From: Nitrosospira briensis C-128
GTDB lineage: Bacteria; Pseudomonadota; Gammaproteobacteria; Burkholderiales; Nitrosomonadaceae
Reading direction: 5' to 3'
DNA length: 64,000 nt
NCBI RefSeq assembly: GCF_000619905.2
Contig: NZ_CP012371.1
Location: forward strand, 3,121,942 to 3,185,941
The notes beneath the pieces are model-generated. The model did no database searches, had not been told where the DNA came from, and saw only the letters and a program-made list of their open reading frames with translations. Positions within the stretch are counted from its first letter, which is position 1. Each line of letters opens with the position of its first letter. Below, in pieces: positions 43,572-50,700 of the stretch. A program made the position numbers and the translations under genes.

Positions 43572-44183
43572 TTATAACCTCACGGCGTAATACTCGACGA
43601 CGTGCTGCACCTCGATAGGGAAGGGCACCTCATCGGCGCTTGGCAGGCGGGTGACGACAGCCGATCGGGTCCGAGCATCGAAGCTGATCCATTCCGGGCG
43701 GGTAAGGGCAGGGGCTAGCAGGCACTCCATGGTCGCAGGAATGCGCGCTGCCTTATCGGTCAGGGCTATGGCGTCGCCGGTTTTTATCCGGATGGATGGG
43801 ATGTTCACAAAGCGGCCATTCAGCATGACATGGCAATGACGGACAAGCTGGCGGGCAGCTGCCGCGGTCGGTGCGAAACCGGCGCGAAATACCAGATTGT
43901 CGAGGCGGCGCTCAAGCAGTTCGAGCAGTTTCTCGCCGGTCGGCGTCTGGGATTTCTTGGCTTCCTTGAACAAAAGCCGAATTTGGGCCTCCGATAGGCC
44001 ATAGTTGAAACGCAGCTTCTGCTTTTCCATCAGGCGCACCGCGTAATCGGAACGGCGGCGACTCTTCTGTCCGTGCTGACCGGGCGGATAGCTTCCCGGT
44101 TCAAGGGATTTGCGGGACAAGCCCGGCAACTCGATCCCAAGTGCGCGCATGACTTTGAGTTTCGGTCCAGTATAACGTGACAA
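43572..44183 (-). CDS. rpsD: Ribosomal protein S4, likely second (paralogous) copy
   Basis: The 203-residue protein begins LSRYTGPKLKVMRALG with TTG as start (44181-44183), AAGGAG at proper distance, and has S4 hallmarks: RRSDYAVRLMEKQKLRFNYG, LLERRLDNLVFRAGF and VRHCHVMLNGRFVNIPS. It lacks a zinc-finger Cys cluster. It is not in an S13-S11-S4-RpoA operon, so it is presumably an alternative copy, as often found for stress- or metal-regulated ribosomal paralogues. It faces a Fur-box region at 44333-44561. An in-frame GTG/ATG further upstream (to 44288) adds residues not found in S4. Confidence 0.9.
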   Translation of the reverse strand: MSRYTGPKLKVMRALGIELPGLSRKSLEPGSYPPGQHGQKSRRRSDYAVRLMEKQKLRFNYGLSEAQIRLLFKEAKKSQTPTGEKLLELLERRLDNLVFRAGFAPTAAAARQLVRHCHVMLNGRFVNIPSIRIKTGDAIALTDKAARIPATMECLLAPALTRPEWISFDARTRSAVVTRLPSADEVPFPIEVQHVVEYYAVRL

Positions 44184-44332
44184 ACGATTCTCCTTTTCGT
44201 TTTGGTTGATAGAGCGGCAGGATCTCCTTGACGCATGGAGCCCATCTGGTAGCAAGCAGCAGCGATGCACCTTATCAATCCACTGCAAGGCTGCAGCCGA
44301 GCTGTAAGAATCATAATATTATCGAAACTCAT

Positions 44333-44351
44333 TTGCAAATGATTCTTATTA
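44333..44351. promoter_or_regulatory. Putative Fur box
   Basis: GCAAATGATTCTTATTATC matches the 19-base Fur consensus at 14 positions. It lies 150 bases upstream of the rpsD start (minus) and 180 bases before the promoter at 44533 (plus). Confidence 0.5.
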
Positions 44352-44532
44352 TCAATTATGATTTTTACTCGATCTATCACGAATTCTCAGTACGGAGCGC
44401 AAAAGCACATTAAGCCGGAGCATTAGCCGCACAGCCGAAATTCTCTTGATCCAAGGGTGTTATTTCTGTTTTATGAAGAGCCAGCTCTTACTACTATAAA
44501 GATGAGAATAGCGTTATTTCTAAATATATTAA

Positions 44533-44561
44533 TTGACAACAGTTCTCATTCTCATTATTAT
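44533..44561 (+). promoter_or_regulatory. Sigma-70 promoter overlapped by a second Fur-like site
   Basis: TTGACA (44533-44538) and TATTAT (44556-44561) are separated by exactly 17 bases. The spacer and -10 box carry TTCTCATTCTCATTATTA, an array of the GAGAAT/ATTCTC-type hexamers bound by Fur. Iron-replete repression of the downstream genes is expected. The predicted 5' leader to the GTG at 44845 is about 280 bases and holds no evident frame. Confidence 0.6.
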
Positions 44562-44844
44562 TTTGTCGTCGCTTACGGCTTCGATAGATCTGAGAAACCG
44601 TTCTCGAGCTTTCAAAAATAAAATAACTGTAGTTTGTTGTCTGCCCGCCACGCCAGGCTCTCACCTCTGGCCGCCAGCCCTGAAAAATCCTGCCAGTCAG
44701 GTTTCCCGAAATACCCGCCAGCCGATTCCGCCCGCAATCAATAAGCGTTTGACATGTGGAGTTTCCACATATGCCTGCTCATGTGCCTCTGGCACTCAGG
44801 GCTAGCGTACTTGCTTTATTCATTCATCCATGGAGGATCTTGAC

Positions 44845-45567
44845 GTGAAATTGAAATCCATAAGTTTGATTGCCGGTTTGCTGCTGACCGCCCCAGCCCT
44901 TGCCGATATCGCCAACGGACCCGATCCCTATGCCGCCGGCTTCGGCTTCGACAAGCCGAGCGATGCCACGGCTGCCTGGGGCGGATGGGCCCGGGGCGAT
45001 GCGGGTACCGCGTATGCGGAATGGGATAATTTCGTCGGGGGCATGCCCGGCACTCCCTACTCCTCGGTTTATGACTCGTCTGGCGTAAGCAGCGCCACTT
45101 TTACCTGGAATGCCGGCACCTTCGGCGCGACCTCGGGAAATCTGTATAGCTTTACCGGCTCTCAGATATTCGACATCGATGTCACGCCTGCTCTCGCTTT
45201 CAATGGTCCGCTTACAGTGGCATTGCAATTCGAAACCTGGGGCACAGTGATGGATTACGGCAGCATCCAGCTGAATGGAATAGCGCCCACCAGCGCGGGA
45301 GTAACCTATACCGATCCTAACTTCTCCAGTTCCATGGGGCCGGTCGAGTTGAACCACTATCTGGCGGTATGGAATCTGAACGCAGCCCCAACTGTGTTTC
45401 ACATAGATATGCAAAGTATCGGACCGCACCAGAGCTTCACGCAAGCCGCCCTGGATATTGCCGCTCCCGTTCCGGAACTCGGTGAATGGGCCATGCTGTT
45501 GGCCGGACTGGGGCTGATGGGGACGATTATTCGCCGGCGTAGTGCCGGAAATAATACCCAGGTATAG
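44845..45567 (+). CDS. PEP-CTERM protein, first gene of the iron-linked cluster
   Basis: The 240-residue protein starts at GTG 44845, eight bases after GGAGG (44832-44836); an ATG at 44830 overlaps that site. A signal peptide (KLKSISLIAGLLLTAPALA) precedes a beta-rich, aromatic- and Gly-rich body. The end is a PEP-CTERM signal: VPELGEWAMLLAGLGL, a helix, then IRRRSAG. It should be exported and processed by exosortase. The downstream TonB receptor starts 29 bases later, so one transcript is likely. A role as an outer-surface binding protein is inferred only from position. Confidence 0.8.
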   Translation: MKLKSISLIAGLLLTAPALADIANGPDPYAAGFGFDKPSDATAAWGGWARGDAGTAYAEWDNFVGGMPGTPYSSVYDSSGVSSATFTWNAGTFGATSGNLYSFTGSQIFDIDVTPALAFNGPLTVALQFETWGTVMDYGSIQLNGIAPTSAGVTYTDPNFSSSMGPVELNHYLAVWNLNAAPTVFHIDMQSIGPHQSFTQAALDIAAPVPELGEWAMLLAGLGLMGTIIRRRSAGNNTQV

Positions 45568-45596
45568 AAAAGAGTGATGGTGCGCGGTCGGGCCAA

Positions 45597-47954
45597 GTGG
45601 AACAGAAATATAAAGCCTGCCTTCTGGCGGGCACGCTACTCCTGCCTGCATACGCGGCCTATGCCGAGGTAGCTGCCGATCAGGCTTCTACCTTTCCTTC
45701 CCCATGCGCGGAACGCGAACTGAAAATTGCAGCCGCTGCCGCTTTTCCAAAGCCCACCCCAGAGGCCGGCTCCCCACTGGTCGCGGCAACGGCTCCGTGC
45801 ATGGATTCACTACCTGAAAAAGCAGGCGCGGAAAATGTGCTTCGCACTATTTCCGTGTCCGCGCCCCGCACCGAGCGCGACATGAAAAACGTGCCGGTCA
45901 CGCTGAACGTCATTTCCGCAGAGACGATAAAGGAACAAATGGCTACGTCCATCAAGGATTTGATCCGTTATGAGCCGGGGATATCGGTCGGCAACAATCC
46001 ATCGCGTTTTGGCCTGAGTGGTTTCAATATCCGTGGACTGGACGGCAACCGCATACTGATCCAGATGGACGGGATCCGCCAGCCGGACAATTTCGTCATT
46101 GGCGGTTTTGCCAATACCGGCCGCAACCTGGTCGACGTCGGCATGCTTTCCGGCGTGGAAATCCAGCGCGGAGCCGGTTCCGCCCTGCAAGGGTCGGAGG
46201 GAGTAGGGGGCGTCGTCTCGTTTCGTTCCCCGGAGCCGGAGGATTTCCTGAAAGGCCGCTCGTTTGCCATCAGCCCTGAAACCATATACCAGGGCGTGGA
46301 TCGCTCGCTCGGCATCATCGGCACGCTTGCTACGGGCAATGAATATCTCAAGCTGATGCTGCGGGGGGTGCAGCGCAGTGGACACGAAACCGCCACCATG
46401 GGTACGATAGGGGGCACCGGTATAACTCGCACCAAAGCCAATCCCCAGGATATCGATACCCTGAACGGGTTGGCAAAGCTGGTGTTCACGCCGTTTGCCA
46501 GTTACCGGGCGACGTTTGCGGCGGAAGGATTTGAGCGCATCGTGGACACGGATATCCTATCGCTGCCACGCGGTCGGCGGGTTGGAATCACGACGAAGGA
46601 TGCCTATGATCGCGACCGGATCTCGCTCGACCAGCGCATCGCGAATACACCGGCCGGCACGATCAACCTCAAACTCTACCAGCAGAACAGCAGGACCCGG
46701 CAGCATACGCGCGACGAGTTTCTGGATAGATCTCCCGCCGCCGGCGACCAAAGAAGCCTCATCGAACGCGACTTCGACTTCAGGCAGACATTGACCGGAG
46801 CGAAGCTGCAAACCGAATCGATATTTGAAATGTGGGGCGCTCATACCCTCACATGGGGGGGAGAAGCCTTCCGCACAGATACGAAGCAGGTACGCGACGG
46901 TGTGGAAAGCAACCTCACGCTGGGCACGCAGAAAAAGCACGTCGGCCCCGACTTTTTCCCGACGCGGGACTTTCCGCCTTCAAGCGCCACCCAACTGGCT
47001 GCATTCTTCCAGGATGAATGGTGGCTGTCCGACCGGTTCACGGTTGTCGCCGGTTTGCGCTATGACAATTATTCTCTCAAGCCCAGGCCGGATGCGCTTT
47101 TCATTGAGCGCAATCCAGGCGTAGATGTGGCGGATGTCAGGCTCAGCGCATTTTCGCCCAAGCTTTCCGGCATCCTGCACATGGGCTATGGTTTTTCATT
47201 CGTTGCCCAATACTCGCAAGGATTCCGGCCTCCGCCATACAACGATGTGAATATCGGCTTTACCAATTTAAGCGCAAGGTATACAGCGGTTGCCAATCCC
47301 CATCTCCGGCCCGAAATTGTGCGTGGCGGGGAGTTATCGTTGCGTCATGACAGCGACAGGGGCACCGTATCCCTCACCGCCTACGATAACCGGTATGAGG
47401 ATTTTATCGACTCCTCGCGTCCTCTTGTCTGCCCCGGCGATCCTCTGTGCGTGCCGGGACTGATGACATTCCAGTCCCGCAACCTGCCAAGGGTGCGCAT
47501 CTATGGCTTTGAAGGCAGGCTGGACCAGCAGCTATATCCCGGTTGGCGTTTGCGCGGCAGCTTTGCCTGGACAAAGGGGCGTGACCTCGAAACCGGGCTC
47601 CCGATCATACAGATCAACCCGGCCACGGGCGTACTGGGCTTGTCCTATGAGCGCGGCCCGTTCCGCATCGAATCGCTTGTCACGGCGGCAATGCGCAAGA
47701 CAGCCCGCGAATCGAGAGGCGTGAACCGATTGCTGCTGCCGCCCGGTTATACCGTGATGGATCTTCTGGCCCAATGGAAATTTGCGCGCACCGGCAGGCT
47801 GTCCGTAGGCATATTCAATCTGCTGGACGAGAAATACTGGCAATGGGCGGATGTGCCCGTTAATGATCCGCACACCGCCGACTCGGTCGGCGGCCCCGAC
47901 CGCTATACCCGACCGGGGCGCAACTTTTCCGTGAGCCTCAGCTACCAATTCTAA
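45597..47954 (+). CDS. TonB-dependent outer-membrane receptor (heme/hemoglobin-type)
   Basis: The 785-residue protein has a signal peptide (residues 1-23), an unusual Ala/Pro-rich extension with two cysteines (about 37-70) and a TonB-box-like RTISVSAPR (about 84). The plug begins VPVTLNVISAETIKEQ with SGFNIRGLDGNRILIQMDGI and ends EIQRGAGSALQGSEGVGGVVSF. The beta-barrel ends in SYQF with a terminal aromatic. The plug resembles hemoglobin/heme/lactoferrin receptors. GTG at 45597 is the family-appropriate start. Position after a Fur-type promoter and before a secreted chelatase-like protein supports import of heme, cobalamin-like or metal compounds. Confidence 0.88.
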   Translation: MEQKYKACLLAGTLLLPAYAAYAEVAADQASTFPSPCAERELKIAAAAAFPKPTPEAGSPLVAATAPCMDSLPEKAGAENVLRTISVSAPRTERDMKNVPVTLNVISAETIKEQMATSIKDLIRYEPGISVGNNPSRFGLSGFNIRGLDGNRILIQMDGIRQPDNFVIGGFANTGRNLVDVGMLSGVEIQRGAGSALQGSEGVGGVVSFRSPEPEDFLKGRSFAISPETIYQGVDRSLGIIGTLATGNEYLKLMLRGVQRSGHETATMGTIGGTGITRTKANPQDIDTLNGLAKLVFTPFASYRATFAAEGFERIVDTDILSLPRGRRVGITTKDAYDRDRISLDQRIANTPAGTINLKLYQQNSRTRQHTRDEFLDRSPAAGDQRSLIERDFDFRQTLTGAKLQTESIFEMWGAHTLTWGGEAFRTDTKQVRDGVESNLTLGTQKKHVGPDFFPTRDFPPSSATQLAAFFQDEWWLSDRFTVVAGLRYDNYSLKPRPDALFIERNPGVDVADVRLSAFSPKLSGILHMGYGFSFVAQYSQGFRPPPYNDVNIGFTNLSARYTAVANPHLRPEIVRGGELSLRHDSDRGTVSLTAYDNRYEDFIDSSRPLVCPGDPLCVPGLMTFQSRNLPRVRIYGFEGRLDQQLYPGWRLRGSFAWTKGRDLETGLPIIQINPATGVLGLSYERGPFRIESLVTAAMRKTARESRGVNRLLLPPGYTVMDLLAQWKFARTGRLSVGIFNLLDEKYWQWADVPVNDPHTADSVGGPDRYTRPGRNFSVSLSYQF

Positions 47955-47957
47955 ACC

Positions 47958-48233
47958 ATGAGAAATTCCAGAGACCTGAGAAATTCCAGAGATCTGAACG
48001 ACAAGCCATCGGTGCGGCTGCTGTTGGCGGCCTTGTCGTGGCTCACCAACAAGCCGCGCCCCGGCGACCCGGCAATGCAATTGGCCATTGCCCATCACAT
48101 TCATATGCTCGTCCTGCACCCGGCATCCGATAGCCTCGATGTTCAGGCGGCTTTCTACATGGCAGGCAAAGCAGGCATGGATGCGGAGGGGCTCCTCGCA
48201 CGTTTTTCTGCCGTTGCGACAAACCTTCATTGA
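47958..48233 (+). CDS. Hypothetical 91-residue protein behind the receptor
   Basis: The ATG lies three bases after the receptor stop. The protein begins with a duplicated RNSRDL hexapeptide encoded by an 18-base tandem repeat (47959-47976, 47977-47994). It continues as a helical soluble sequence (KPSVRLLLAALSWLTNKPRP, AMQLAIAHHIHMLVLHP) with a His-rich patch. It has no signal peptide. The close spacing argues for co-translation. No known family recognised. Confidence 0.6.
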   Translation: MRNSRDLRNSRDLNDKPSVRLLLAALSWLTNKPRPGDPAMQLAIAHHIHMLVLHPASDSLDVQAAFYMAGKAGMDAEGLLARFSAVATNLH

Positions 48234-48353
48234 GCATGGTCCTGGGACAGCTCTCAAGCCAGCCAGCTGGCTCCGGCCCTGACAAAATGAAATTGTTCAG
48301 GGATCTTCATATTCCGGTCGATTCTGTACGTTTTATCAAATAGTAAGGAAAAC

Positions 48354-50213
48354 ATGAATACGAAAAAACACATGTCAATGCTCAAACCCTGCTATTGCCT
48401 TGCGCTGGTTGTGCTGCTGGCGGTATCGATCAAATCCGGTTTTGCGGAAGAGACCTTGAGCAGAAAAGACAGGCAGACAGGATTTCTGGTTGTCGCAGCG
48501 GATCGCGGTTTCCTTGGCAACGAGGAGATCATCGACGAATTCCACCTGTTTGCAAAAGGACGCAATGCTTCACTGGTATTCGTTACTGACGAACGCACGC
48601 AGAAATACCTCGATACGGAGGTGGACAGGCTTTTGCAAAGAGGCGCGGAGCGCATCGTGACGATTCCGTTGTTTGTGTCCCCGCAGGATCCCCGCTATCG
48701 ACTGGCCCATAACCTGCTTCAAGGCGGAAAAGTCAGCGTACCGGTTTCGTATGCACGCTCCTACGGCGAGAGCGTCTTCGCCGTAGAGGCGCTGGCGGAT
48801 AGATTGCGCACTATTCGATCCCCCGCGGATACCAGCCTGATCGTTGTGGGGTACGGTGCGGTGGACAACGATAGCGAGCAGAGAATGCTGGGTGACTGGA
48901 AGCATATCGCGGAGAAGGCCGCTGCCGGGTTTGATTTTGCATCCGTCAGCGTGGTGATCGGTCATGATAAAAAAGATGAAGCAGAAAAATACACTGCTAG
49001 GCTGAAGCAGGAACTGGCCGGCGCCGCCGGCCCCGGGGGCGGCAAAATCGTTGTGATGCCATTTCACCTCGGCCCCAGGCTTGACAGCATGATGTCGTTC
49101 GACGCGAAGCTCAAGTGGCTATTGCCGCCGGGTGCTCAACTGGTTTCCGAGGATAGTGCGGGTATGCAACCGAATGACGGAACTGGGCGCAGCAAAAATA
49201 TCCCCCCGATCACCGCCGGACTGGCGGTGTGGTTTGAGCGTGAAGCCAACCTGAGCCAGCCGCTTGCCGCCGAAGATGTCGGAATCGTATTTTTGTCCCA
49301 CGGTGCAGACTTCAACTGGAATGAAACAATGCGCGAGTCGGTACAGCCTTTGGCCAAGCGGTACAAAATCGAATTCGCATTTTCCATGGCTGACCCGGTG
49401 ACAGTTGAGCGTGCCATCCGCAAGCTGGAGCAGCGCGGCGCAAAAACCGCGATAATCGTGCGGGTATTCGCGATGGAGGATAGTTTCCGCAAATCGGTTG
49501 AACGCATGGCCGGGTTGGACGTGGAAGGCATTGCACAGGACGCTGCTGATAATCATGCCGGGCATGGGCATGGAGAAGGCGCCAGCATTCCGGCGCCGCG
49601 CATCCTTTCCCGTTTGCCTATTCGGACCGTGGGCGGCTTGGAGTCCCATTCGCTATTTGCCGCCGCATTGCTTGAGCGCGCTCGCGCGCTGTCCAGGAAC
49701 CCGGTGCGTGATACCGTTATTTTGGTCGCGCATGGTTCCGGTAGTGATTATCAGAACGATCAGTGGAACAGGGTGTTGGAGAAAATGGCCGCCCATATGC
49801 AAAATGCCGGTAAGGGCGAATTTCACGCAATCAAGGTTGCAACCTGGCGTGAAGATTGGCCGGACAAACGGGAACCATGGATCCGCAAAGTCCGGGACAT
49901 GGTCGGAGAGGCGGGAAACGATGGAGGCAGAGCGATTGTGATCCCTGCTCGAACCACCGGTCAGGGACCGGAGAAAGAGTTCCTTTCCGGCCTGGAGTTT
50001 GACTTGGGAAGCGGATTTGCGCCCCACCCACTGTTCATGCAATGGGTGGACGAGCAAATTCAAATGGGATTGGCGCAATTTGCCGAGACGCGCCGTGCAT
50101 CAATGGCGATGCTTGAGACTGATAGAATTAAACAGGAAATAGTCCCGAACAGGCCGTCGCGTTCCAATCACGCATTTTATAAACTGATAAAGCAAATCAA
50201 AAAAAGAAAATAA
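48354..50213 (+). CDS. Secreted protein of four CbiX/sirohydrochlorin-chelatase-like units
   Basis: The 619-residue protein has a signal peptide (residues 1-31, ending SGFA-EE). Four chelatase-type strand-loop-helix units begin at about residues 43 (FLVVAADRG), 162 (LIVVGYGAVDN), 310 (GIVFLSHGADFN) and 454 (TVILVAHGSGSD). CbiX-type enzymes use the His of such SHG/AHG loops to bind the metal. That His is kept in units 3 (His316) and 4 (His460) and lost in units 1 and 2. A His-rich loop, HAGHGHGEG (401-409), lies in between. Cytoplasmic relatives insert Co or Fe into sirohydrochlorin; an export signal makes metal or tetrapyrrole handling in the periplasm likely. A periplasmic CbiK is known from Desulfovibrio. 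The C-terminal tail is strongly basic. Confidence 0.82.
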   Translation: MNTKKHMSMLKPCYCLALVVLLAVSIKSGFAEETLSRKDRQTGFLVVAADRGFLGNEEIIDEFHLFAKGRNASLVFVTDERTQKYLDTEVDRLLQRGAERIVTIPLFVSPQDPRYRLAHNLLQGGKVSVPVSYARSYGESVFAVEALADRLRTIRSPADTSLIVVGYGAVDNDSEQRMLGDWKHIAEKAAAGFDFASVSVVIGHDKKDEAEKYTARLKQELAGAAGPGGGKIVVMPFHLGPRLDSMMSFDAKLKWLLPPGAQLVSEDSAGMQPNDGTGRSKNIPPITAGLAVWFEREANLSQPLAAEDVGIVFLSHGADFNWNETMRESVQPLAKRYKIEFAFSMADPVTVERAIRKLEQRGAKTAIIVRVFAMEDSFRKSVERMAGLDVEGIAQDAADNHAGHGHGEGASIPAPRILSRLPIRTVGGLESHSLFAAALLERARALSRNPVRDTVILVAHGSGSDYQNDQWNRVLEKMAAHMQNAGKGEFHAIKVATWREDWPDKREPWIRKVRDMVGEAGNDGGRAIVIPARTTGQGPEKEFLSGLEFDLGSGFAPHPLFMQWVDEQIQMGLAQFAETRRASMAMLETDRIKQEIVPNRPSRSNHAFYKLIKQIKKRK

Positions 50214-50216
50214 TCG

Positions 50217-50374
50217 ATGGCAACTGGCGATAAACCAACTACTGGGATCGAAGAGCAGGAAGAGACCCTGGCCCTACTCAAGATACTGGCACTTGGCAAC
50301 CGTGAGTCGAGCAGGGACACTTTCTTTCCGCCAACGATGTGTTTGACGAGCTGGGCAAGGAAGATGCGCAGTGA
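50217..50374 (+). pseudogene. Antitoxin broken by a one-base frameshift
   Basis: ATG 50217 reads MATGDKPTTGIEEQEETLAL and LKILALGNRE, and then the frame diverges. The right continuation VEQGHFLSANDVFDELGKED lies in another frame and stops at 50372-50374, overlapping the toxin start. Restoring one G (CGTGAGGTCGAG) gives a 52-residue antitoxin of the short Phd/RelB-like kind. As sequenced, no complete antitoxin is made. Confidence 0.7.
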
Positions 50375-50700
50375 GTGTTTCTGTCGTGTTTCTGAGATCG
50401 GCAGAGATTGACCTGAAGGAACTGAAAAGCGACATCGTCAAAAACCTTGGCAAGAAAATCTGGCAAGCCGATTACAGAAAGATTCAAGAGGTTGTAGGCA
50501 CCCTGCAGACCTCCCCGCTCCAAGGAAAAATGCCTGAAGAACTTGGCCGACTGAACCTCACTCGGTATCGCCAGGTTATTTCAGGCATGAACCGGATCAT
50601 TTATGAAGTCAGGCAAGAGACGATCTACATTCACGTTGTTTGCGATACTCGCAAAGACATGAAGTCCTTGGTTGCAAAACGGCTTCTAAGGATCATCTGA
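50371..50700 (+). CDS. RelE/ParE-family toxin
   Basis: The 109-residue protein starts at GTG 50371, overlapping the antitoxin stop. It has the ParE/RelE compact alpha-beta fold signature: VVFLRSAEIDLKEL, LGRLNLTRYRQVISG-type strand, NRIIYEV and IYIHVVCDTRKDM, ending in a basic helix. Members inhibit gyrase or cleave mRNA on ribosomes. The frame is intact while the antitoxin is frameshifted, so the toxin is unexpressed, inactive, neutralised from elsewhere, or the frameshift is a sequencing error. Confidence 0.85.
   Translation: MSVSVVFLRSAEIDLKELKSDIVKNLGKKIWQADYRKIQEVVGTLQTSPLQGKMPEELGRLNLTRYRQVISGMNRIIYEVRQETIYIHVVCDTRKDMKSLVAKRLLRII

Follow-up and report, generated by a model that had tools for sequence, protein, structure and literature searches.

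Why would an ammonia oxidiser export a protein folded like a chelatase, and why encode it behind a TonB-dependent receptor and Fur-like sites? Could these parts together draw iron from heme? The questions arise from a gene cluster of Nitrosospira briensis C-128, located in a window of 64,000 nucleotides (contig NZ_CP012371.1, positions 3,121,942 to 3,185,941) of a 3.21-Mb genome that forms a single contig. A first-pass annotation, made from the letters of this window, had proposed that a surface-sorted PEP-CTERM protein, a heme-type receptor, a 91-residue open reading frame (here SM91) and a secreted CbiX-like protein capture a metal-tetrapyrrole, import it, and remove or insert metal in the periplasm. 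On the grounds of anatomy and genomic association, we lean with modest confidence towards a module that, as a whole, would serve to obtain iron, with heme or a closely related metallotetrapyrrole as its source.

The cluster comprises four genes read in one direction behind a leader of 283 bases, a promoter and two Fur-like sites; an S4-like gene lies divergent upstream (Table 1). Its reading frames lie at the positions given in the first-pass annotation, and the first of them, the PEP-CTERM-like gene, most likely starts at the GTG at 44845, which is preceded by GGAGG. This gene is separated from the receptor gene by 29 bases; 3 bases lie between the receptor gene and SM91, and 120 between SM91 and the CbiX-like gene. 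Compared with three to five relatives per gene, the ratio of nonsynonymous to synonymous substitutions (dN/dS) ranges from 0.09 to 0.22, so that all four, the 91-residue frame included, appear to be genuine genes subject to purifying selection. Signal peptides were called by eye throughout.

The receptor was first described as heme-type, and it exceeds the cut-offs of both TIGR01786 (378.5 against 323.75 bits) and TIGR01785 (332.7 against 316.85 bits). A copper receptor was considered and rejected, the score being far under the cut-off. At E 1e-60, close relatives (at least 61% identity) were found in 4 of the 124 other genomes of the family, at loci L031, L033, L035 and L090, together with a 33% relative in genome G033. 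Wherever a close receptor occurs, in five loci counting the window's, an orthologue of the PEP-CTERM-like gene lies directly upstream.

The exported partner is likewise what it was first taken for, a four-unit CbiX-like protein. It scores 29.2 bits against PF01903 (cut-off 22), its AlphaFold model contains four beta-alpha units, and the combination of PF01903 with a chelatase fold places it among the class II CbiX proteins. Its two halves align with each other (hhalign probability 94.7 over 195 columns); the protein consists of a two-unit module of the class II chelatase type, present in duplicate. At least one fifth of the alignment rows span model residues 303-579, and the N-half was compared by hhalign only. 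No lipobox was seen by eye, CobN was not among the matches listed up to E 1, and the score against the CfbA model NF033198 is 28.9 bits, with a cut-off of 120. Catalysis in the ferrochelatase HemH relies on a His and a Glu some 80 residues from each other; His460 and Glu540 are 80 residues apart, and the corresponding spacing in the strain's own HemH is 81. Among named records, the closest CbiX-like proteins come from Nitrosospira, Nitrosovibrio and another Nitrosomonadaceae bacterium.

Do receptor and chelatase-like protein belong together? We compared 25 full-length loci: 10 from the window's genus, 1 from group g4, 12 from group g3, which appears to be Nitrosomonas-like (one of these, G081, is broken into three frames), and 2 from family f48. 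G001 (two-unit form) and G010, G011 and G033 (fragments) were left out before this count. If SM91 is disregarded, a TonB receptor is the direct neighbour of the CbiX-like gene in 15 of the 25 loci (4/10 in the genus, 0/1 in g4, 9/12 in g3, 2/2 in f48); adjacency at the g3 loci of G014, G015, G017, G021 and G074 rests on short flanks. The pairing occurs in two families and in either gene order, and the receptors involved fall into two distinct clades. L047, L048 and L049 read DUF2325 - CbiX - receptor, plus another divergent receptor, and L046 reads CbiX - receptor without DUF2325. In f48, where 2 of 4 genomes carry the protein, the receptor gene precedes CbiX in both; one of the two receptors is of the g3 type, the other of the window type. 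In G033, a window-clade receptor and DUF2325 lie beside a CbiX remnant. It looks as if the partner receptor had been exchanged while the pairing persisted, and the proposed tie between receptor and exported chelatase-like protein gains from this recurrence with different receptors.

The first-pass annotation had made its proposal depend on the four genes being found together in some other genome. They are, in the same order, in 1 of the 124 other family genomes (G106, locus L031), and three of the four, without SM91, stand together in G099 and G112. Because SM91 occurs apart in eight loci and the CbiX-like gene is often found without the PEP-CTERM-like gene or a receptor, the four do not form one fixed unit. 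A search of the order (399 genomes, E 1e-10) yielded 6 matches, the strain's own included, of which 4 fall in the family; a search of the phylum (398 genomes, E 1e-20) yielded the window's genome and one two-unit match.

Table 1. Features of the cluster and related sequences; positions refer to the window unless a locus is named.
Feature	Position	Strand	Remarks
Upstream Fur-like site	44335..44353	+	15/19 to E. coli consensus; best in the 64-kb window
Sigma-70-like promoter, TTGACA-17-TATTAT	44533..44561	+	11/12 matches; overlapped by Fur-like site 44535-44553
Long 5' leader	44562..44844	+	candidate structured element inside, 44635-44729
Exported protein with divergent PEP-CTERM tail (PELGEWAMLLAG)	44845..45567	+
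TonB-dependent receptor, heme/hemoglobin family	45597..47954	+	FRPP and NPHL boxes; TIGR01786 and TIGR01785 above cut-off
SM91, 91-residue conserved protein	47958..48233	+	predicted helical, low confidence; no match in Pfam or NCBIfam
Exported four-unit CbiX-like protein, class II chelatase fold	48354..50213	+
N-half, residues 38-272, two units	48465..49169	+	no HG histidine (AADRG, VGYG)
C-half, residues 303-580, two units with HG motifs	49260..50093	+
His316, unit 3 HG	49299..49301	+	17/17 aligned homologues; also in Manganitrophus homologue
His-rich loop (His401, 404, 406) between units 3 and 4	49554..49571	+	position 406 His in 14/17
His460, unit 4 HG	49731..49733	+	17/17; also in Manganitrophus homologue
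Glu540, 80 residues past His460	49971..49973	+	17/17; Tyr in Manganitrophus homologue
His558 (APHP)	50025..50027	+	17/17; also in Manganitrophus homologue
Ribosomal protein S4-like gene	43572-44288	-	divergent from the operon
Two-unit CbiX-like lipoproteins	L109:6421-7389 (G857); L052:7869-8840 (G001)		lipobox by eye; homologous to the C-half

Is the cluster controlled by iron? Fur-like sites were scored over 19 positions against the E. coli consensus. The consensus promoter of the first-pass annotation is there, and so is its Fur-like site, which matches at 13 of 19 positions and covers the -35 box and spacer; sites of at least 13/19 occur at 15 positions of the window. Since a 7.5-kb scan returned 9 sites resembling promoters, where shuffles gave 4.7 +/- 2.2, only the score of this promoter and its overlap with the Fur-like site are notable. 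The stronger site lies 200 bases upstream of the promoter, and a pattern modelled on that site itself is found at one place in the window and in 0 of 100 shuffles. It is situated between the S4-like gene and the operon and could serve either. A TTGACAA..TTCT(C/T)ATT core is conserved in the orthologous leaders, and L031, L033, L035 and L090 have a site of 14-16/19 some 300-350 bases ahead of the PEP-CTERM-like gene, with strongly conserved sequence around it. A box of at least 14/19 lies within 600 bases upstream of 23 of the 29 starts tested, against 1.4% of 1740 random windows from the same loci; the loci being related, the 29 starts are not independent events. The available passages of PMC3050691 state that a Fur box of N. 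europaea is recognised by E. coli Fur, and give the Nitrosomonas Fur consensus as 80% like that of E. coli. By sequence, a Fur-like box stands at the promoter as in a Fur regulon, and the conservation of boxes in orthologous and related operons speaks for the control first suggested; the operon is presumably repressed by Fur and apparently switched on at iron shortage.

Starting from what can be read in the sequence, namely the Fur-like sites, the receptor family, the signal peptide, the chelatase fold, the conserved residues and the recurrent pairing, we propose the following route. When iron runs short, Fur would leave the promoter and the genes would be read. The receptor would carry the tetrapyrrole, presumably heme or a relative, over the outer membrane, to be bound in the periplasm by the exported CbiX-like protein with its two class II chelatase modules in tandem. 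The C-half, with His316, His460, Glu540 and His558, would take the iron out, or would only hold the tetrapyrrole and pass it on; both versions are contained in the module reading. The N-half may have a structural or binding role. Freed iron would enter through ordinary ferrous uptake, with the PEP-CTERM-like protein as a likely accessory at the cell surface and SM91 as a further one.

Several observations count against this reading. The iron-removal step, which would make the protein a periplasmic class II heme de-chelatase with one dead and one live two-unit module in tandem, is put forward tentatively. It is quite possible, if short of probable, that the protein of the same module is a non-catalytic periplasmic binder or chaperone of the tetrapyrrole (heme), with the fold kept for binding. 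CbiX class II chelatases hold a two-histidine active site within one unit, and the window protein has no such site. Its N-half lacks an HG histidine in the alignment, and in unit 3 the second histidine of the solved sirohydrochlorin chelatase 6m25 (CfbA) aligns with Ser377 (Ala in f48). Profile alignment of the C-half to the strain's own HemH failed (probability 5.4) and Glu540 is not kept in the homologue from Ca. Manganitrophus, so the His/Glu likeness to ferrochelatase rests on spacing and fold. Foldseek placed 1 of 1007 matches at E <=0.001 and had LacI-type and sugar-binding folds among its top rows, a result that is weak alone. The absent histidines and the change of Glu540, and also the His-rich loop and His558, which could ligate heme, speak for mere binding; against it, His316, His460, Glu540 and His558 are invariant in the 17 aligned homologues, and a ferrochelatase-like His/Glu spacing remains.

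Other points concern the receptor. In the alignment an asparagine takes the place of the canonical heme histidine, which heme receptors carry between their FRAP and NPNL boxes; the histidine is kept in the receptors of L046-L049, L097 and L053, of which L053 alone belongs to the window's clade. The Manganitrophus receptor stays under every cut-off and is nearest to siderophore receptors. Such features, together with the periplasmic-binding folds among the Foldseek rows and an NRPS (nonribosomal peptide synthetase) gene beside a FecCD permease in the strain's own genome, suit uptake of a siderophore or other metallophore, in which the receptor would take a ferric chelate and the CbiX-like protein would be its periplasmic binding protein. 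We regard this as unlikely, as the four scored CbiX-neighbour receptors of Pseudomonadota rank far higher in the heme family than in the siderophore family. The host context fits iron release outside the cytoplasm and is no proof of it. The genome carries a ferrochelatase gene; PF01126 heme oxygenase, the only heme-degrading family looked for, was found in none of the 23 genomes of the genus, the strain's own included; and there are two FecCD matches, the strong one beside a phosphopantetheinyl transferase (PPTase) and the NRPS gene, the weaker still above its cut-off with 31.6 bits. The region of the NRPS of 1995 residues, PPTase and FecCD permease (L103 7941-16798; own genome C1:1948010-1964918) is possibly a siderophore cluster.

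It is decidedly improbable that the protein works in the direction of metal insertion, loading an imported tetrapyrrole that lacks metal with cobalt, nickel or iron as periplasmic CbiK-P does: Fur-like control indicates iron shortage, and a B12 receptor was rejected at 82.6 bits against a cut-off of 599.7.

The remaining counterpoints lie in distribution. The CbiX-like protein is patchy, with 26 carriers among the 125 family genomes and 9 among the 23 of the genus; four of the 26 have fragments or the two-unit form only, and in one the gene is broken by stops. Ten of the 25 full-length loci lack a direct receptor neighbour, that of G018 because the contig ends, and related loci are not independent events. 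A box of at least 14/19 is absent at L041, L042, L083, L097 and L098, and the box of L047 overlaps the gene start and was left out of the 23. Are the four genes then chance neighbours within an iron regulon, given that CbiX, SM91 and the PEP-receptor pair lie apart in several genomes? We consider this highly improbable, since the pairing recurs with different receptors, the PEP-CTERM-like gene keeps its place before the receptor in 5/5 loci, and signs of SM91 occur beside a receptor or CbiX in G107, G102 and G099. Maturation of periplasmic cytochromes or of the heme P460 of hydroxylamine oxidation, in place of iron uptake, is hardly credible: ammonia-oxidising hosts depend on periplasmic heme proteins, but carriers are a minority in both family and genus, control is Fur-like, and homologues occur in f48 and Ca. 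Manganitrophus.

Is there a precedent for an iron-from-heme module of this kind? The closest described arrangement is that of Porphyromonas IhtA/IhtB (FetB of entry 9b86 is presumably IhtB), and by function it is the unrelated HmuS. In the available passages of PMC10913741, IhtA/IhtB of P. gingivalis comprises a receptor and a lipoprotein resembling CbiK, to which extraction of heme iron is ascribed. The first-pass annotation knew of no described system with the composition of the window cluster; with a comparable one described, this claim is to be softened. In both, a TonB receptor gene lies beside a gene for an extracytoplasmic class II chelatase, with SM91 in between in the window. As described in those passages, IhtB is a lipoprotein, whereas ours has four units and an ordinary signal peptide; IhtC-E serve inner-membrane transport, whereas none of the four cluster genes encodes an ATP-binding cassette (ABC) component; IhtB is reported not to be Fur-regulated, in contrast to the Fur-like boxes found here; and the parts listed there include neither a PEP-CTERM protein nor SM91, both present in the window cluster. 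According to the available text of PMC12583661 and PMC13227078, Hmu of Bacteroidota is a heme receptor operon in which HmuS, a chelatase acting in reverse, frees iron from heme, so that heme de-chelation can feed iron uptake; HmuS is described there as a class I protein of the CobN-like kind, membrane-bound and about 1450 residues long, whereas the window protein belongs to class II, another family. If our inference holds, the present module works like Iht and Hmu; it is not an Hmu member.

CbiK-P of Desulfovibrio vulgaris, which has a full His site and a link to heme, is a two-unit protein (263 residues in 2xvz), unlike the four-unit protein of the window. SirB, CbiX and CfbA have the fold and the HG motif in common with it, as its PF01903 score reflects, but these are cytoplasmic biosynthetic enzymes with a two-His site, whereas the window protein is exported and duplicated and lacks the second histidine. 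The lipoproteins of L052 and L109 have two units instead of four, and no receptor was recognised among their listed, unscored neighbours. In the open-access literature searched, we found no work combining Nitrosomonas, CbiX and TonB, and none on TonB-dependent heme uptake for iron in ammonia-oxidizing Nitrosospira.

What of the other parts? The leader contains a 95-base element that recurs in 5/5 leaders of PEP-receptor loci with 57-109 bits; elsewhere in the 53 sources searched no score came near this, the next best being 18.8 bits (E 0.0087). It has covarying hairpins and GCCAGC-like motifs, and an ACCC-GCCA stretch of the leader is predicted to pair with the Shine-Dalgarno sequence of the PEP-CTERM-like gene. 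In the predicted structure, which was derived from the same five sequences, 18 pairs show changes in both partners; shuffles give 8.9 +/- 2.0 such pairs, and sliding the structure gives 2-6. Folding of the element alone is strong (z -3.3 to -4.2) for L031, L035 and L090 but not for the window (z 1.4) or L033 (z 0.0), and the window's whole leader is no stabler than its shuffles (z -0.05). We regard it as a candidate structured RNA only. Two Rfam matches to the leader, both far under their gathering scores, were taken as chance, and a general PEP-CTERM element was rejected, as the element is absent from the 20 PEP-CTERM regions examined of the 24 others in the genome.

The protein following the leader was first described as a PEP-CTERM protein. 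That it is exported agrees with its signal peptide; a canonical tail it does not have, its motif reading PEL (PEP in two aligned orthologues) and its scores remaining under the cut-offs of PF07589 (12.3 against 20.7) and NF035944 (24.5 against 35), so that it is not among the 24 places in the genome that pass PF07589. Three orthologues reach 29.8-33.3 with NF035944, still below 35.

SM91 occurs in 14 of the 125 family genomes, the strain's own included, all of the window's genus. It is under purifying selection (dN/dS 0.10-0.22), and its AlphaFold model has a pLDDT (predicted local distance difference test) of 59.6. In the window, L031, L037, L038, L039 and L044 its gene has CbiX beside it or nearby; in L082-L089 it stands away from intact receptor and CbiX genes, six of these eight loci having a Fur-like box of their own (at least 15/19, at most 160 bases upstream). 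Signs of a tie to the cluster come from three genomes: SM91 follows a degraded receptor end in G107, the receptor of G102 is followed by a degraded SM91 copy, and the CbiX reading frame of G099 opens with MKNSRDQK, resembling the start of SM91.

Shortly after the cluster lies a ParE-type toxin gene (50371-50700, + strand; PF05016, 34.8 bits), possibly with a short antitoxin frame ahead of it. DUF2325 proteins of about 450 residues are encoded upstream of the CbiX-like gene at L047:6531-7901 and L034:6042-7391; they were set aside as a heme link, the available passages of PMC9426514 connecting DUF2325 with heme indirectly only. In Ca. Manganitrophus, CbiX-like proteins are annotated as hypothetical, and on a plasmid (L104 9058-17326) genes for a CbiX-like protein, a Metal_resist-like protein, a sigma-like helix-turn-helix protein, a TonB receptor, a PepSY protein and a ferritin-like protein stand in a row.

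What would it mean if heme were demetallated here? Speculatively, the cluster would give chemolithoautotrophic Pseudomonadota access to heme iron with no need of heme oxygenase or a heme ABC importer, through an independent counterpart to HmuS that is controlled by Fur and possibly by a leader RNA. If this is true, ammonia oxidisers, heavy users of iron for their periplasmic heme enzymes, would mine environmental heme and strip its iron outside the cytoplasm. Heme demetallation for iron would then have been solved a second time, by the unrelated class II chelatases, and exported CbiX-like proteins, for example those of Ca. Manganitrophus, would acquire a role.

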